Shown: positions 17,907-24,618 of the stretch, piece by piece
Position numbering within the stretch: the stretch's first letter is position 1
How the letters are laid out: every line of letters starts with the position of its first letter
Assembly (NCBI RefSeq): GCF_012913485.1
Contig: NZ_CP051774.1
Location: 4,588,001-4,652,000, forward strand
Reading direction: 5' to 3'
Origin: Luteolibacter luteus
Lineage (GTDB): Bacteria > Verrucomicrobiota > Verrucomicrobiia > Verrucomicrobiales > Akkermansiaceae
Length of the DNA: 64,000 nt
Notes under the pieces: model-generated
What the model was told of the DNA's origin: nothing
The model's database searches: none
Seen by the model: only the letters and a program-made list of their open reading frames with translations
Program-made: the position numbers and the translations under genes

Positions 17907-18435
17907 GCGAATCATGGAAATGGAGGAACGCGCGGAGCCGCGACCACATGAGGAAGCGATGCCGTTCGGGGCTCGTATCGCCAAAGCGTTTCTCGATCTG
18001 ATGACCCTGATCCTGATCCTGCCGATGATCTGGCTCGCGCCATCTTGTTTGTTTAGCCTCGGAATTGTGGTTAGGGAGGAAGGACGATCCGCTCGACACG
18101 TCCTCACGGCCGCGGCCATGTTCTTGGGCTTCGAGGCTTTTCTCGGGATGTCCTTTGCCTCCTTCTGGATGGTCTGCTTGCTCCGGTCGCGTTATCGCCT
18201 GACCTTTCCTGAAAGTGTACCGCCAAACGGGCCACTGCTCGACATCGTGCAGCCGATGGCCCTCACGTCCATGCTTCAGGCCAGCTTGGCAATCTTGATG
18301 TGGCTAGGTGCCAGATCGTTCGGGCATTCGCCTTCTTGGGTTTGGCTGAGTTTCTGGTTGCCGACCGGCCTCGCGGCATGGGCGGTAAACCGGTGGGTCA
18401 GCCGGGCGGGGGAAGATGGAGAGTCCGCTTCCTAG
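17899..18435 (+). CDS. Membrane protein of a tandem paralogous trio, third copy
   Basis: A 178-residue protein beginning MDKRIMEMEER after a GGAAAGGAAGG ribosome-binding region that lies inside the end of the previous gene. A charged N-terminus of about 25 residues precedes four predicted membrane spans. FWMVCLLRSRYRLTFPES and PSWVWLSFWLPTG correspond to segments of the second copy. An earlier in-frame start 21 codons upstream is possible but lies deeper in the neighbour. Its stop overlaps the stop of the convergent thymidine phosphorylase gene by 4 bp. Function unknown. Confidence 0.68.
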   Translation: MDKRIMEMEERAEPRPHEEAMPFGARIAKAFLDLMTLILILPMIWLAPSCLFSLGIVVREEGRSARHVLTAAAMFLGFEAFLGMSFASFWMVCLLRSRYRLTFPESVPPNGPLLDIVQPMALTSMLQASLAILMWLGARSFGHSPSWVWLSFWLPTGLAAWAVNRWVSRAGEDGESAS

Positions 18436-19673
18436 GGTTTGATCCGGATGGCCTTCTCCAGCATGGCTTCCGCGATCTCAAAATCGACCGGTGTGCGGGC
18501 GTGGATGCGGCAGATCGGATGCCCTTGGTGGATATGCTCGCCAACCTTTACCAAGCGGTCGAAGCCGACGGCGTGATCCACGCCATCGTGCGAACGGGCG
18601 CGTCCCGCGCCGAGTTGCAAGGCGGCTTGCCCCACCATGCCGGCATCGACCTTCATGATCGTGCCGGTGTCTGGTGCAGGGAATTCGCGGATGAGCGGAG
18701 CGTGATGGGTCTTCGCGAGATTCGGGAGATCCGCAGGATTTCCACCATGGGCTGCCACGATCTCATCGAACTTCTTCCTGGCGCTTCCGTCATCCAGCAG
18801 CTTTTCAAGTTCTTCCCTTGAAACGGGGCTAATTTTCTCGGCCAGATCCAGCACGAGTTTCCGGAGATCCCCCGGGCCACTGCCTTCCATGCACTCGATG
18901 GATTCGATGACTTCAAGTGCATTGCCCACTGAGCGGCCCAGTGGCTCGCTCATTGGATTCAGGATGGCGTGGACTTCCACCCCCATCTCCTTGCCCACGG
19001 CAATCATGGAGTCGGCGAGGACTTGAGCATCGGCCTGCGTTTTCATGAAGGCACCGCTGCCGAACTTCACGTCCAAGACCAGCTTGTCGAGCGACTCGGC
19101 GAGCTTCTTTGACATGATGGAAGCCGTGATCAGCGGGATGGATGGCACCGTGCCGGTGACGTCTCGCAGGGCGTAGAGTTTCTTGTCAGCAGGGCAGAAG
19201 CGATCGGTCTGTCCCATCATGACCACGCCAATCTTCTCCAAGAGTTCCTGGGCCTCGGGAATCGTGATGCCGACCTTGAAGCCGGGGATCGACTCCAGCT
19301 TGTCCAAGGTCCCGCCGGTGATGCCAAGGCCGCGGCCGGAAACCATGGGCACCCAGACGCCGGTGCAGGCGACCAGCGGAGCGAGGATGAGCGAAACCTT
19401 GTCGCCGATGCCGCCGGTGGAATGCTTGTCCACAACCGCCGGATGACCGGCGCGATGATGAAAAACATCGCCGCTCTCCAGCATCGCCTTGGTGAGTGCG
19501 GCGGTTTCCACCGCGTCCATTCCCTTGAAATAGACGGCCATCGCAAAGGCGGACATCTGGTAGTCCGGGATTTCGCCGGATGTGTAGCCCCCGATCAGCA
19601 GGCGGATCTCCGCCGGATCGAGCGTCTCGCCCTCGCGCTTGCGGGAGATCAGGGTGGGAACGTGGAGTTTCAT
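18432..19673 (-). CDS. deoA: Thymidine phosphorylase / pyrimidine-nucleoside phosphorylase
   Basis: A 413-residue enzyme that splits thymidine or related pyrimidine nucleosides with phosphate to give the base and (deoxy)ribose 1-phosphate. The N-terminal glycosyltransferase-family helical domain is followed by KHSTGGIGDK (phosphate binding) and the family signature SGRGLGITGGTLDKLES around residues 112-128. DVKFGSGAFMK and a C-terminal pyrimidine-phosphorylase domain with GVDHAVGFDRLVKVGEHI complete the usual layout. It is somewhat shorter than the about 435 residues common for this family. Its ATG overlaps the stop of the Doc-like toxin gene (ATGA), so it is coupled to the toxin-antitoxin pair upstream. 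Phosphopentomutase, the next pathway step, is encoded just beyond that pair. Confidence 0.93.
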   Translation of the reverse strand: MKLHVPTLISRKREGETLDPAEIRLLIGGYTSGEIPDYQMSAFAMAVYFKGMDAVETAALTKAMLESGDVFHHRAGHPAVVDKHSTGGIGDKVSLILAPLVACTGVWVPMVSGRGLGITGGTLDKLESIPGFKVGITIPEAQELLEKIGVVMMGQTDRFCPADKKLYALRDVTGTVPSIPLITASIMSKKLAESLDKLVLDVKFGSGAFMKTQADAQVLADSMIAVGKEMGVEVHAILNPMSEPLGRSVGNALEVIESIECMEGSGPGDLRKLVLDLAEKISPVSREELEKLLDDGSARKKFDEIVAAHGGNPADLPNLAKTHHAPLIREFPAPDTGTIMKVDAGMVGQAALQLGAGRARSHDGVDHAVGFDRLVKVGEHIHQGHPICRIHARTPVDFEIAEAMLEKAIRIKP

Positions 19674-20062
19674 GAAATCGATGCGGTATTGCGGCGAAGC
19701 CAGGTGGCGAAGGCTTCTTCCTCCATATCACCAGCGGCCAGGTCCAAGGCGGTCGAGTAGCGGTCGCCCTGAGGAGCGGTAGCCGTGATGCCATTGCGCA
19801 ACAGAAAGAGTCGGTAGACTACAAAGGCCGTGCGCTTGTTGCCGTCGATGAACGGGTGATTCTTTGCCAAGCCTTTAGCATAGGAAGCGGCAAGGGCGTA
19901 GATGTCTGCGGAGGAATCGTAGGTGTAGCGCTGTTGCGGTCTCGCGATGGCGGACTCCAGCAGTGATTCATCGCGGATGCCGGCGTCACCGCCGTGTTCG
20001 TTCACCTGCCGCTGATGAAGGGCTAGAACAATCTCCTTGGGAATCCAGACTGGTTCGTCCAT
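19670..20062 (-). CDS. doc: Doc/Fic-type toxin (death-on-curing family)
   Basis: A 130-residue Fic-fold protein. The active-site loop H69-PFIDGNKR-T (HPFIDGNKRTA) is complete and canonical for Doc proteins, which phosphorylate elongation factor Tu. The N-terminal RDESLLESAIARPQQRY and the YALAASYAKGLAKNHPF helix are also typical Doc features. It follows an AbrB-type antitoxin gene with a 2-bp gap, and its stop overlaps the deoA start by 4 bp. Nothing suggests inactivation. The family call is firm; whether it is an active toxin is inferred. Confidence 0.9.
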   Translation of the reverse strand: MDEPVWIPKEIVLALHQRQVNEHGGDAGIRDESLLESAIARPQQRYTYDSSADIYALAASYAKGLAKNHPFIDGNKRTAFVVYRLFLLRNGITATAPQGDRYSTALDLAAGDMEEEAFATWLRRNTASIS

Positions 20063-20064
20063 GG

Positions 20065-20292
20065 CTATTGGGCAAGAAGGTGAAGTACGTCGCGATCCTC
20101 GCGCATGATCTCCTCCGCCAATCGCATCTGCCGTGAGAATTCATCTTCTGCGGCCTTGAGAACGAAGCCTTGCTCGGTTGGGGTAAGAACGAGGTGATTT
20201 TCTGCCGTGACTCCAAGCTTCTCCATGACCGGGGACGGTAGGGTGATTCCCAGTTCATCGCCGATGCGAATGATTTTCAGCTCAATGCTCAC
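20065..20292 (-). CDS. AbrB/MazE-type antitoxin
   Basis: A 75-residue protein with an N-terminal swapped-hairpin AbrB-like DNA-binding domain (LKIIRIGDELGITLPSPVMEKLGV, then DHLVLTP-like strands). The acidic helical tail (EDEFSRQMRLAEEIMRED) could wrap the toxin. It lies directly before the doc-type gene, the usual order for this pair in many genomes. It probably represses its own promoter and neutralises the toxin. The 24-bp gap to phosphopentomutase upstream leaves little room for a separate promoter. Confidence 0.85.
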   Translation of the reverse strand: MSIELKIIRIGDELGITLPSPVMEKLGVTAENHLVLTPTEQGFVLKAAEDEFSRQMRLAEEIMREDRDVLHLLAQ

Positions 20293-20315: not shown

Positions 20316-21416
20316 CTACTCGTCCAATCCGAAGTGCCTTGCGACGATCCGGGCGACTTGGATGAAATCCGCGGAGTCTTCAACCTCCAGCGGTGAATTT
20401 ATCGTCAGCAGCGGCACCTGTTCACGGGTGTGATCGGTCCCGTGGTGGTAGGGATCATTTCCATGGTCGGCGGTGATGATGAGAAGGTCTTCTCCGATCT
20501 CCGGCAGAAATCCGCCGAGCCACGCGTCAAACTCCCGGAGGCATTTGGCATAGCCCTCGGGATCGCGGCGGTGGCCGTAGAGCGAGTCGAAGTCGACGAG
20601 GTTCGCGAAGATGAAGTGTGGAAGCTCGCGGGACTCCGACCAGAGTCTTTCGATCGCGGCCATGCCTTCGGCGTTTGATCTCGTGGGATGTGACTCGGAG
20701 ATGCCGGAGCCAGCGAAGATGTCCGAGATTTTTCCAACGCCGATTGTCTCGATGCCTTCGGACCGCAGGCGATTGAGTATGGTGCCGGGCGGCTTCAGCG
20801 AGTAGTCGTGGCGATTGCCGGTTCGCTTGAAGCGATCCGCAGGGTCTCCGGTGAACGGGCGGGCGATCACCCGGCCGATGCGGATGCCGCGGCGGTTCAA
20901 GACCTGTCGTGCGCGTTCGCAGAGAGCATGGAGCTTTTCCAAGCCATAGGCGTCCTCATGGGCCGCAATCTGCAGAACGGAATCGGCACTGGTATAGACG
21001 ATGGGCTTTCCGGTTCTCAGGTGCATCTCGCCGAGTTGCTCCAGGATCTCCGTTCCTGATGCAGCGACATTGCCGAGGAAGGGACCGCCGATCTCGTCGA
21101 GAAGATCCTGCGGAAAGCGGGTGAAGGTATCGAAAGGTTCACGAAGGATGCAGCCGGCGATTTCCCAGTGACCGGTAGTGGTGTCCTTCCCGGCGGAAGC
21201 TTCGCTCATCCGCGCTGCTTCCGAGGCTGGGAATATCCGGGGTTCCTCACGCCCTAACAAACGGTTCAATCCCAGCGAGGCCAGATGCGGAAGCTCGAGG
21301 TCGTGGCGCTCGAAGAGATGGCCGAGGGTGTTTGCGCCTTCATCTCCATAAGCTGCGGCATCCTTTGCCCCGCCACAGCCGACGGAGTCCAAGACGATCA
21401 ACAGTGCGCGCTTCAC
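20316..21416 (-). CDS. deoB: Phosphopentomutase
   Basis: A 366-residue alkaline-phosphatase-superfamily mutase that interconverts (deoxy)ribose 1-phosphate and 5-phosphate. It opens with VLDSVGCGGAKDAAAYGDEGANTLGH, where Asp is a metal ligand and Thr the phosphorylated residue. It has GKDTTTGHWE, and ends with the second metal site ITADHGNDPYHHGTDHTREQVPLL, all classic DeoB signatures. It is slightly shorter than the about 390-400 residues usual in the family. It works directly after thymidine phosphorylase in deoxyribonucleoside breakdown; deoxyribose-phosphate aldolase is not in the window. It precedes the toxin-antitoxin genes on the same strand. Confidence 0.94.
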   Translation of the reverse strand: MKRALLIVLDSVGCGGAKDAAAYGDEGANTLGHLFERHDLELPHLASLGLNRLLGREEPRIFPASEAARMSEASAGKDTTTGHWEIAGCILREPFDTFTRFPQDLLDEIGGPFLGNVAASGTEILEQLGEMHLRTGKPIVYTSADSVLQIAAHEDAYGLEKLHALCERARQVLNRRGIRIGRVIARPFTGDPADRFKRTGNRHDYSLKPPGTILNRLRSEGIETIGVGKISDIFAGSGISESHPTRSNAEGMAAIERLWSESRELPHFIFANLVDFDSLYGHRRDPEGYAKCLREFDAWLGGFLPEIGEDLLIITADHGNDPYHHGTDHTREQVPLLTINSPLEVEDSADFIQVARIVARHFGLDE

Positions 21417-21459: not shown

Positions 21460-23709
21460 CTACTTTAGTCCGAAAGGATTCTCGCCGGTATTTCCCACGG
21501 GTTCGACGATGACGGTGGTCCCATCGAAGAGTTCCAAGCGTCCTCCTGGCTGGCAGCGCAGCTTGAGGCTGTCCTTGCCGTCCTCTTCAACGGTGATCGC
21601 TTCCGCTTCGCGCTTCAAAGTGGCGATGCCCTTTGCGCGAAGCGTGACTTCGCCACCGAAGGGCGCGATGAAGATGATCCAGCGGGTTTTGCCTTGGCCC
21701 GCGGCGGCGCTTATGCGGAAACCTCCCTCCGCGGTGAAGTCGCGGAAGATCGTCCGATGCCACTTCGGCGAGAGAGCCGGGAAAAGTTGGATCACTCCAT
21801 TCTGGCTACGCATGGCCATTTCCTGGAGGACGGTTGCGCAGTGGAGCGGGGTCTCCATCACGGGCGCGGATCCCGCTTCGAGGTAGAGCGTGTTCGGCTT
21901 CAGGAAGGGACGGAAGCCATCCAATAGCTTCTGCGCCCGCTCGCCATCGCCCAGGATTGCGGACATAGCGATTCCTCCGGTGAAGGAGTAGCCTTGGAGG
22001 GCCGCGGGCTTCGAGTGCCAGTGATCGAGGTTACTCTTGATCCAATCCGCGCCGTCCTTCTCAGGCATCACAAGTCCCAAGGGATAGATCATCAGCAGGT
22101 GTGACCAGTGGCGATGGCTCTTCTCATAGGGCATGTCCGCGCCGATGAGGTAAGATTCCTTGTCGCGCGGGAACGGGACGAGTTTCTCGAGAATGCGCTG
22201 CCACTCTGGAGCCAGCGGGTCCTTGGTGGCGAAGGTCTGGTTGAGCTCCAGCAGGGTCTTGCAGCCCCATGTCAGCAGGGCGAGATCGTAGTTCGCATCT
22301 TCCTCCTCGCCATATTCCGGGCTGTGGGTCTTCGGGAGATGAAGGCGTCCGTCTTGTCCTTCTCTGAGGAAATGCCGGTGGTAGTTCACCGCGCGCTTGA
22401 GAAGTGGAAAGAGGAGTTCCTTACCGAGCTCCTCATCCATCGAGCAGCGGTAGTGGCGGTAGAGATTGTGACAGGTCCACAACAGGTTCCCGCACTCCAT
22501 TCCGATGTCTTCGCGTTCGCGGACCGTCCGCCCGCCCGGTTGGCCGGACCAGCCGAGCAGGTCGGGCCCGGTATTCCGCGCGAGTCCTGCCGAGTCCTCG
22601 CGATACTTCTCATCCACGGAGGCGATGAGGTTCGCCATGCCTTTTTTCAGGTGGGCGGGTAGGGCGCCCGCTTCATGAAAGCGGTTCGATCCATAGAAGG
22701 GGGAATAGCTGAGCTGGACGTTGAGATTCCACCATGTGGCCGACCAACCGGAAGGCTGAAACCACGGGCCGGAGTTGTCGATGAGCCCGCGGCCCGAACG
22801 AGTGGCGGAAGCCATTTTGTAGATTTGGATCCAGTAGAAGGACTCCCAATAGGGATCGCTGAAGCTGAAGAAACTCTTCCCGTACCATTGGTGCCACCAC
22901 GCGCGGTGAGAGGCCTGCCAATCCTCGAAAGGGGTGTCCGCGGCCTTCGCGACGCGTGCGGAAGCGAGGGGAGCAGCATCCTTGTCGGGAAAACGATGTT
23001 CCACGGTCCAGAAGAGGCGATGGCCATTGCGGCGCCAAGTGCTGACGGTCTGGCCGCCCGATGCGAGATCCCAGACCACGCCGCCGCGGCTGGCGCTGCC
23101 GGCTCGGTAGGGCTTCGGGTTCGGCTTGCGAGCTTCCCGGAGATCGGCGGGCAGCTTGCTCTCGCGGGGGCTGATCGCCTCTTCGGAGGCGAAATCGAGG
23201 CCCTGACCCGTTTCGCCGCCGCTCGGTTCGAGCTCGATCACGCCGACCCGGTCCGTCGCGTGGGCAAAGATCCGCCATTTGACGGAGCCCTTGTTGGTCA
23301 CCAGTTCACCCCGGGCCTCCGCGTTCCAGAGGTCGATCCGGGCGGTGGATTTCGCCGGATCGATGACTCCTTCCGTCGTCAATTCGAAGCGCCCGATCGG
23401 CAGGCGTCCGCGGTTCTGAACCTCGATCGCGTCCGGGACCTTGCCCTTCCAGATGTCATCCGTCCGGTGATCGTGGACGCGGTTGCTACCAACATCGAAC
23501 CGTAGGGTCTTCTCGCCAGCCAGCCGCACCATCATGCCCAGCTCCCCGTCGCCGATGAAGGGGGCTTCCCACCAATCCGTCCCCATTCGGGTCCAAACCG
23601 GGTCATGTCCGGCAAGGAACTTCTCCCAGTCCACGGCGTCTTGAAGCGCATTTGCGGGGCCCGAAGAGGCCAGCGTGAGGAGCAGGGAAAGCAGGTGCCA
23701 CAGCTTCAT
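21460..23709 (-). CDS. Secreted GH95-like glycoside hydrolase (six-hairpin fold)
   Basis: A 749-residue exported protein with a signal peptide (residues 1-21, ending ANA). An N-terminal beta-sandwich begins FIGDGELGMMVR and holds GSNRVHDHRTDDIW, comparable to the opening of GH95 alpha-L-fucosidases. The middle is an (alpha/alpha)6 barrel with MECGNLLWTCHNLYRHYR, then LPKTHSPEYGEEEDANYDLALLTWG, whose Glu is the candidate acid. The C-terminus has GNGVIQLFPA-like and ETPLHCATVLQEMAMRSQNGVI segments, which are normal in GH95. It probably removes fucose or galactose from polysaccharides in the periplasm. The exact family and sugar need a profile search. It sits 43 bp upstream of phosphopentomutase on the same strand. 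Confidence 0.68.
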   Translation of the reverse strand: MKLWHLLSLLLTLASSGPANALQDAVDWEKFLAGHDPVWTRMGTDWWEAPFIGDGELGMMVRLAGEKTLRFDVGSNRVHDHRTDDIWKGKVPDAIEVQNRGRLPIGRFELTTEGVIDPAKSTARIDLWNAEARGELVTNKGSVKWRIFAHATDRVGVIELEPSGGETGQGLDFASEEAISPRESKLPADLREARKPNPKPYRAGSASRGGVVWDLASGGQTVSTWRRNGHRLFWTVEHRFPDKDAAPLASARVAKAADTPFEDWQASHRAWWHQWYGKSFFSFSDPYWESFYWIQIYKMASATRSGRGLIDNSGPWFQPSGWSATWWNLNVQLSYSPFYGSNRFHEAGALPAHLKKGMANLIASVDEKYREDSAGLARNTGPDLLGWSGQPGGRTVREREDIGMECGNLLWTCHNLYRHYRCSMDEELGKELLFPLLKRAVNYHRHFLREGQDGRLHLPKTHSPEYGEEEDANYDLALLTWGCKTLLELNQTFATKDPLAPEWQRILEKLVPFPRDKESYLIGADMPYEKSHRHWSHLLMIYPLGLVMPEKDGADWIKSNLDHWHSKPAALQGYSFTGGIAMSAILGDGERAQKLLDGFRPFLKPNTLYLEAGSAPVMETPLHCATVLQEMAMRSQNGVIQLFPALSPKWHRTIFRDFTAEGGFRISAAAGQGKTRWIIFIAPFGGEVTLRAKGIATLKREAEAITVEEDGKDSLKLRCQPGGRLELFDGTTVIVEPVGNTGENPFGLK

Positions 23710-23799
23710 GATGAAACAGCTTGAGGGAGCCTTGATGACCCGGGCAAGAGCTCGATTCAGGCCGGTAAGGGAATTGTTTGGAAGGATCGTATCGAACCT

Positions 23800-23905
23800 T
23801 CGATTTAAGCTAAATTTTTAACAAGTTATTCACATTGAATGATGAAGTTTTAGCGGGAAAGAAGTCGAATGTGAATAAAGTTATCCACATCCCAAATGTG
23901 AATAA
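23800..23905. other. Cluster of four perfect DnaA boxes beside AT-rich DNA, candidate replication origin or DnaA-binding site
   Basis: Four sites match TTATNCACA at all nine positions: 23826-23834 (forward), 23870-23878 (reverse), 23881-23889 (forward, the strong TTATCCACA form) and 23897-23905 (reverse). The last three are separated by only 2 and 7 bp. A stretch from about 23800 to 23860 is AT-rich in otherwise GC-rich DNA and could unwind. The cluster lies in the 279-bp gap between divergent genes (glycosidase on the left, NAD(P)-binding protein on the right). No dnaA, dnaN or gidA gene is nearby, so an origin is possible but not proven; a DnaA-titration or DnaA-regulated site is the alternative. 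Confidence 0.6.
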
Positions 23906-23988
23906 CCTGGAGGCTTTGAGGTGAGTTTTAAAGATACTCTCAGCTTCGTGTTTGCCCCTTTTCAAATGCCTGCTTTCTTGCCCGGATC

Positions 23989-24618
23989 ATGGCAACGGTG
24001 TTGGTGGCAGGTGCGACGGGTTTGGTCGGAAGCGAGGTACTCCGGCTAGCTCTCGCGGACAAGCAGGTGGAGCGCGTGGTAGCGCCCACTCGCCGCGCCC
24101 TGCCGGCCCATCCCCGGCTGGAGAATCCGGTGGTGGAGTATCAGTCGTTGAGCGGGGAGGAGCCGTGGTGGGACGTGGATGCCGTGATCTGTGCGCTGGG
24201 TAGCACGATCAGGAAGGCTGGGTCGCAGGAAGCCTTTAAACAGATCGACCATGGTTTCCCGTTGAAAGTCGCGGTGCATGCGCTGGAGAATGGCGCACGC
24301 AGCTACGCTCTGAACTCCTCGGTGGGCGCGGATCCGGGGTCGCGGAATTTTTACCTGCGGACCAAGGGGGAGGTGGAACGCGACTTGGACCAACTGGGTT
24401 ACTGCTCGATCACGATCGTGCGGCCCTCGGTGATCTGGGGGGCTCGGAAGGAGACACGGCTGGGTGAGAGCCTCGCGGTTTTCGCGCTCACTGCGATGCG
24501 GCCGGTGGTGCCGCGGCGCTATCGGGTGGTCCCCGCAGCGCGGATCGCGAAGGCTCTGCTGCGCGGTGCGATCGCCGGAATTCCCGGAAAGCGTGTGCTG
24601 GAGTCGGAGGAGATCTAG
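23989..24618 (+). CDS. NAD(P)H-binding epimerase/oxidoreductase-like protein
   Basis: A 209-residue Rossmann-fold protein of the atypical short-chain dehydrogenase/NmrA-like group. The dinucleotide motif is VLVAGATGLVGSEV at residues 4-17. Later it shows DVDAVICALGSTIRKAGSQEAF and SYALNSSVGADPGSRNFYLRTKGEVE, where Tyr and Lys sit in the place of the SDR pair, and TIVRPSVIWGARKETRLGE. This pattern resembles HTATIP2/YwnB-type oxidoreductases. The reaction and substrate are unknown. It is the first plus-strand gene to the right of the DnaA-box cluster, which may overlap its promoter. Confidence 0.8.
   Translation: MATVLVAGATGLVGSEVLRLALADKQVERVVAPTRRALPAHPRLENPVVEYQSLSGEEPWWDVDAVICALGSTIRKAGSQEAFKQIDHGFPLKVAVHALENGARSYALNSSVGADPGSRNFYLRTKGEVERDLDQLGYCSITIVRPSVIWGARKETRLGESLAVFALTAMRPVVPRRYRVVPAARIAKALLRGAIAGIPGKRVLESEEI

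Follow-up and report, generated by a model that had tools for sequence, protein, structure and literature searches.

Does a dense group of perfect DnaA boxes mark the site where a chromosome starts to replicate? The question is raised by a 64-kb stretch of DNA (the window, C1:4588001-4652000) on C1, the single 6,412,079-bp contig of the genome studied here (G000). An earlier note on this DNA reported four perfect DnaA boxes in 80 bp and proposed them as a candidate chromosomal origin, with a DnaA-titration or regulatory site as the fallback. The four boxes (W1 to W4, Table 1) were refound as exact matches to TTATNCACA, and three of them do nearly touch in alternating orientation, as the note had described, within 23870-23905. 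W2 and W3 form a near-perfect inverted repeat, TGTGAATAAAGTTATCCACA. W1 and the weak box in front of it form a tandem "double DnaA box" (TTTTTAACA-ag-TTATTCACA, 23815-23834, 2-bp spacing) upstream of a gene; none of the other three exact boxes has a tandem partner. The boxes, their spacing, and their intergenic place are seen directly in the sequence.

Table 1. Features of the window (window positions) and the second box group of the chromosome (C1 positions).
Feature	Position	Strand	Details
Weak DnaA box	23815-23823	+	TTTTTAACA; 2 mismatches; 2 bp before W1, same orientation
DnaA box W1	23826-23834	+	TTATTCACA; exact match to TTATNCACA
DnaA box W2	23870-23878	-	TTATTCACA; exact match; inverted pair with W3, 2-bp gap
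DnaA box W3	23881-23889	+	TTATCCACA; exact match
DnaA box W4	23897-23905	-	TTATTCACA; exact match
AT-rich intergenic stretch	23750-23950		39% GC overall; 31% at 23800-23899
GH95-family glycosidase gene	21460-23709	-	Pfam PF22124/PF21307; start 23709
DeoB-like gene	20316-21416	-	PF01676
Doc-like gene	19670-20062	-	HPFIDGNKRTA motif, read by eye
Pyrimidine nucleoside phosphorylase gene	18432-19673	-	PF00591/PF02885/PF07831
209-aa NAD(P)-binding (Rossmann) gene	23989-24618	+	PF13460, E 1.7e-5, just under the family cut-off
Cluster A, extragenic DnaA-box array	C1:5074075-5074413	+/-/+	Exact boxes with tandem partners

The window contains no exact TTATNCACA match besides these four. When it was shuffled, a mean of 0.37 exact matches was obtained, and four were reached in none of 100 shuffles. 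With one mismatch allowed, 13 matches are found versus 12.6 by chance; since this count is at background, the signal in the window consists of the W1-W4 cluster only. Across the 6,412,079 bp of the chromosome there are 34 exact sites, against 22 for the motif read backwards as a control; from the former count, 2.5e-10 groups of four in 80 bp are expected genome-wide. At the local base composition, the probability of at least four boxes in 200 bp is 1.2e-9. The cluster is thus far beyond chance, as the note had claimed. It is the tightest exact-box group on the 6.41-Mb chromosome, which has only one other tight group, cluster A; together, the two hold 8 of the 34 sites.

The setting of the cluster also matches the earlier description. 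Its AT-rich stretch is surrounded by DNA of 60-70% GC, and it lies between divergent genes for the GH95-family glycosidase and the 209-aa protein. Neither dnaA nor dnaN is nearby: the single dnaA gene lies at C1:1.041 Mb, 2.0 Mb from the likely oriC, with a dnaN-like gene directly downstream. An RNA gene at the cluster was rejected, as the window is without an Rfam or tRNA match.

Four exact boxes in AT-rich, intergenic DNA could mark the origin of the chromosome, or an additional active origin. Base-composition skew, named in the earlier note as a check, points elsewhere. Skew was sampled at 20 kb per 80 kb, with complete coverage of 2.48-3.56 Mb. Its sign changes at about 3.0 Mb and about 6.3/0 Mb, not at the cluster (4.612 Mb), and the AT skew peaks at 3.035 Mb. 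GC skew is locally noisy between 2.5 and 3.4 Mb, so that the best-fit origins from GC only (2.36 Mb) and from keto skew (3.32 Mb) flank the AT-skew peak. An origin fixed at 4.612 Mb is 14-25 log-likelihood units worse than the best fit, whereas one at 3.04 Mb is 0.4-6.3 units worse. Compared with either 3.04 Mb or the best fit, the 4.612-Mb origin is 7 to 25 units worse, depending on the skew used, and it lies outside the bootstrap 95% range of 2.16-3.84 Mb.

Other landmarks are found at the skew switch. Four parS-like sites with the core TTCCACGTGGAA lie at C1:3039741-3041423, three of them within an mnmG-like gene and the fourth ahead of it (parS/mnmG, 3.0397-3.0417 Mb). Each of the ten sister genomes searched also has GTTCCACGTGGAAC sites in a small group, in most cases four. 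Six kb from parS/mnmG is an oriC-like segment, C1:3033538-3033670, with imperfect DnaA boxes only (TTTTCCACA, TTGTTCACA, and TTACTCACA), of which TTGTTCACA is invariant in an alignment of oriC-like segments. The segment also holds AAAGATCTCTTATTAGAGCCTGTG. E. coli oriC, between mnmG and mioC, contains the same 13-mer as the segment, GATCTCTTATTAG, which occurs once only in the 2.4 Mb of G000 searched. A 24-mer of the segment (at most three mismatches) is found once each in seven genomes of the genus and in none of the rest of the 57 genomes. In six of the seven (G000 and five sisters), the 24-mer is 5.8-6.3 kb from the parS group; the seventh, G010, was outside the parS search. By its position, motif, and conservation, C1:3033538-3033670 is likely to be oriC. 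No described origin for this bacterial group was found in the literature searched.

The window cluster is therefore mid-arm, 1.58 Mb or 24.6 centisomes from the likely oriC, a placement that is itself seen in the sequence. Given the skew, the parS group and mnmG at 3.04 Mb, the oriC-like element conserved 6 kb from parS in G000 and five other genomes, and the lack of conservation of the cluster described below, there is next to no chance that the cluster is an origin of the chromosome, and that proposal of the note is abandoned. Plasmid and phage collections gave no DNA match to the cluster; a plasmid or phage origin in the window was also rejected on this ground. Two other loci were ruled out as the origin: the dnaA locus (1.04 Mb) by skew, and cluster A (5.074 Mb) by skew and by its distance of 2.0 Mb from parS in two complete genomes.

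If the cluster is not an origin, are its boxes DnaA sites at all? In the part that reads the box, domain IV of the G000 DnaA can be aligned with both E. coli 1J1V and B. subtilis DnaA (GGRDHGTVIHAC in G000 vs GGRDHTTVLHAC). One residue of the recognition motif is changed, from DHTTV in E. coli to DHGTV here. In E. coli, tandem boxes 2-3 bp apart are the geometry that best predicts DnaA binding in vivo, and nucleotide-synthesis genes are among the targets (PMC11317965). Of 57 Verrucomicrobiales genomes, 29 contain the 20-mer TTGTGAATAACTTGTGGATA, which consists of two tandem boxes, with at most two mismatches, and none contains its reversed control. A double box precedes nrdB/nrdA, encoding class I ribonucleotide reductase, at C1:2550074-2550093 and in several relatives across genera. 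Furthermore, exact-box clusters lie directly upstream of dnaB in G003 and G015 (L191:4644-4853 and L200:5053-5350). The reductase and dnaB at these sites were identified by sequence reading; taken at these predicted identities, the sites show that this clade uses double boxes or box clusters before genes. Because the domain IV match is joined by a geometry that recurs before nrd and dnaB, TTATNCACA sites in this genome very probably function as DnaA sites. Binding of DnaA at the window cluster itself is predicted with good confidence.

Conservation was another check named in the earlier note. No comparable cluster is found upstream of the 209-aa ortholog in G015, the closest relative sampled (77-78% identity), or in five more genomes (G008, G012, G010, G005, and G006). 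Two boxes, TTGTTCACA and TTATTCACA, stand shortly before the ortholog in G003, and the weak box TTGTTCGCA precedes TTGTTCACA at 2 bp; the next gene upstream differs from the GH95 arrangement here. The window cluster is, among the genomes sampled, therefore lineage-specific, with a partial counterpart in G003 at most. Orthologs of the 209-aa gene are present in the genus; a query of the protein against genome contigs gave no confirmed relative. The GH95 and deoB relatives elsewhere are far apart or on separate contigs, and the arrangement of genes at the cluster seems to be particular to G000. Among the genomes with listed sites, GH95 and DeoB relatives have no exact box nearby, and genus-wide DnaA control of deo or GH95 genes was rejected on this ground.

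Such a private gene junction, with relatives of its genes separated elsewhere, would also be expected if the boxes were a functionless relic at a rearrangement junction. Alternatively, they might be the operator of another DNA-binding protein with a TTATTCACA-like site, as the W2-W3 inverted repeat is of the kind a dimeric repressor would use. However, the motif in relatives is also non-palindromic, occurs in 11-bp tandem layouts, and stands before nrd and dnaB genes. As for the relic, the survival of four intact exact boxes would be unlikely. We regard these two explanations, even taken together, as improbable.

We lean, by a modest degree, to the view that the window cluster is an off-origin, lineage-specific DnaA cluster that serves as a DnaA-responsive regulatory region and to some extent titrates DnaA. 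With the likely origin elsewhere and the cluster beyond chance, the fallback of the earlier note is the best-supported reading. We infer DnaA binding and any effects on transcription and on free DnaA. DnaA would bind the W1 double box as well as W2, W3, and W4; the bound protein would assemble across the AT-rich spacer between the two divergent transcription units. It would then control one or both divergent promoters, probably by repression. Sequestration of DnaA would be an automatic by-product of binding at the cluster.

The genes on both sides bear on this regulatory reading. On the minus strand, the run away from the cluster begins with the GH95 gene, followed by the DeoB-like, Doc-like, and pyrimidine nucleoside phosphorylase genes; on the plus strand, the 209-aa gene is followed by a beta-lactamase/NamZ fusion. 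Support comes from the improbability of the cluster, from the W1 double box and the same geometry before nrdB/nrdA, from the nucleoside-salvage genes in the minus-strand run, given that E. coli DnaA targets nucleotide synthesis, and from the two boxes upstream of the 209-aa ortholog in G003. Several findings count against it: the cluster is missing in G015 and five relatives, a search for a sigma-70-like promoter found none, GH95/deoB relatives are not near exact boxes where sites were listed, there is a single tandem partner, and DHTTV is changed to DHGTV. Within the minus-strand run, the Doc-like gene and a small ORF just upstream of it (19670-20258, minus strand) lie between the DeoB-like and nucleoside phosphorylase genes. 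The two possibly encode a toxin-antitoxin pair within a salvage operon.

The window cluster resembles kinds of sites already known in other bacteria. In E. coli, the DnaA-regulated promoters of nrdA, purH, polA, and nrdD carry double boxes (PMC11317965). Like W1 and its partner, they have a weak box and, 2-3 bp away in the same orientation, a strong box upstream of a gene. Unlike them, the window cluster adds three exact boxes in mixed orientation, and its flanking genes are not a recognized DnaA regulon. For the DnaA-box clusters (DBC) of B. subtilis, DnaA titration was shown according to the account of Okumura 2012 given in PMC5010248. As far as that account goes, they are likewise intergenic box groups away from the origin; they are near oriC, whereas the window cluster is 1.58 Mb off. 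The datA, DARS1, and DARS2 sites of E. coli are non-coding box groups (3-6 boxes) distant from oriC, as is the window cluster, and their structure and relative position are conserved (PMC4585315).

These likenesses make pure titration the main rival of the regulatory reading. The cluster would then be a titration or nucleotide-state site of the DBC or datA/DARS type, with the main job of holding or recycling DnaA and so tuning initiation, and its neighboring genes would be incidental. A datA/DARS-type site works with IHF or Fis and alters the nucleotide state of DnaA. Dense, exact, extragenic boxes 24.6 centisomes from oriC fit this role, as do neighbors that are not an obvious DnaA regulon. 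In addition, the oriC-like segment has imperfect boxes only, so distant perfect boxes could compete for DnaA. However, the conserved architecture of datA/DARS is absent from the window cluster and is found, within the genus, in cluster A, which suits such a role much better. We consider pure titration at the window cluster unlikely, though worth serious consideration; if DnaA does bind there, a mainly gene-regulatory role has about double the probability of titration alone.

The layout of cluster A is shared in the genus, with outer spacings of about 98-110 and 230-244 bp, and alignable blocks are found in nine genus genomes, G008 being the weakest. G002 is without the usual flanking genes and has another context, shared with a box pair in G016. 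G026, from another genus, has a related double box in its icd-lpxI region. In G000, cluster A and oriC are 2.04 Mb apart; in the complete genome of G002, the array is 2.00 Mb from parS. These features make cluster A a better candidate than the window cluster for a putative datA/DARS-like site.

A further observation concerns the perfect box TTATTCACA. All 19 sites in G000 are at least 1.0 Mb from oriC, with none between 1.48 and 4.03 Mb, and the complete relative G002 has none within 1.6 Mb of parS. This avoidance is a post hoc and weak signal (about 0.01 for G000 and about 0.03 for G002, calculated by hand under a uniform null). It is a rather speculative idea that, in Luteolibacter-like Verrucomicrobiota, imperfect boxes at oriC, perfect TTATTCACA sites far away, array A, and species-specific clusters would together form a distal DnaA sink. 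In E. coli, DnaA boxes concentrate near oriC; if the sink exists, the layout here would be the opposite.

The densest cluster of perfect boxes on this chromosome thus does not appear to be its origin, and the likely oriC has imperfect boxes only, so box counting alone would mislead origin calls. For this little-studied group, the analysis supplies a specific candidate for oriC and a DnaA array that is conserved away from the origin; with these, DnaA control in the group can be tested directly.
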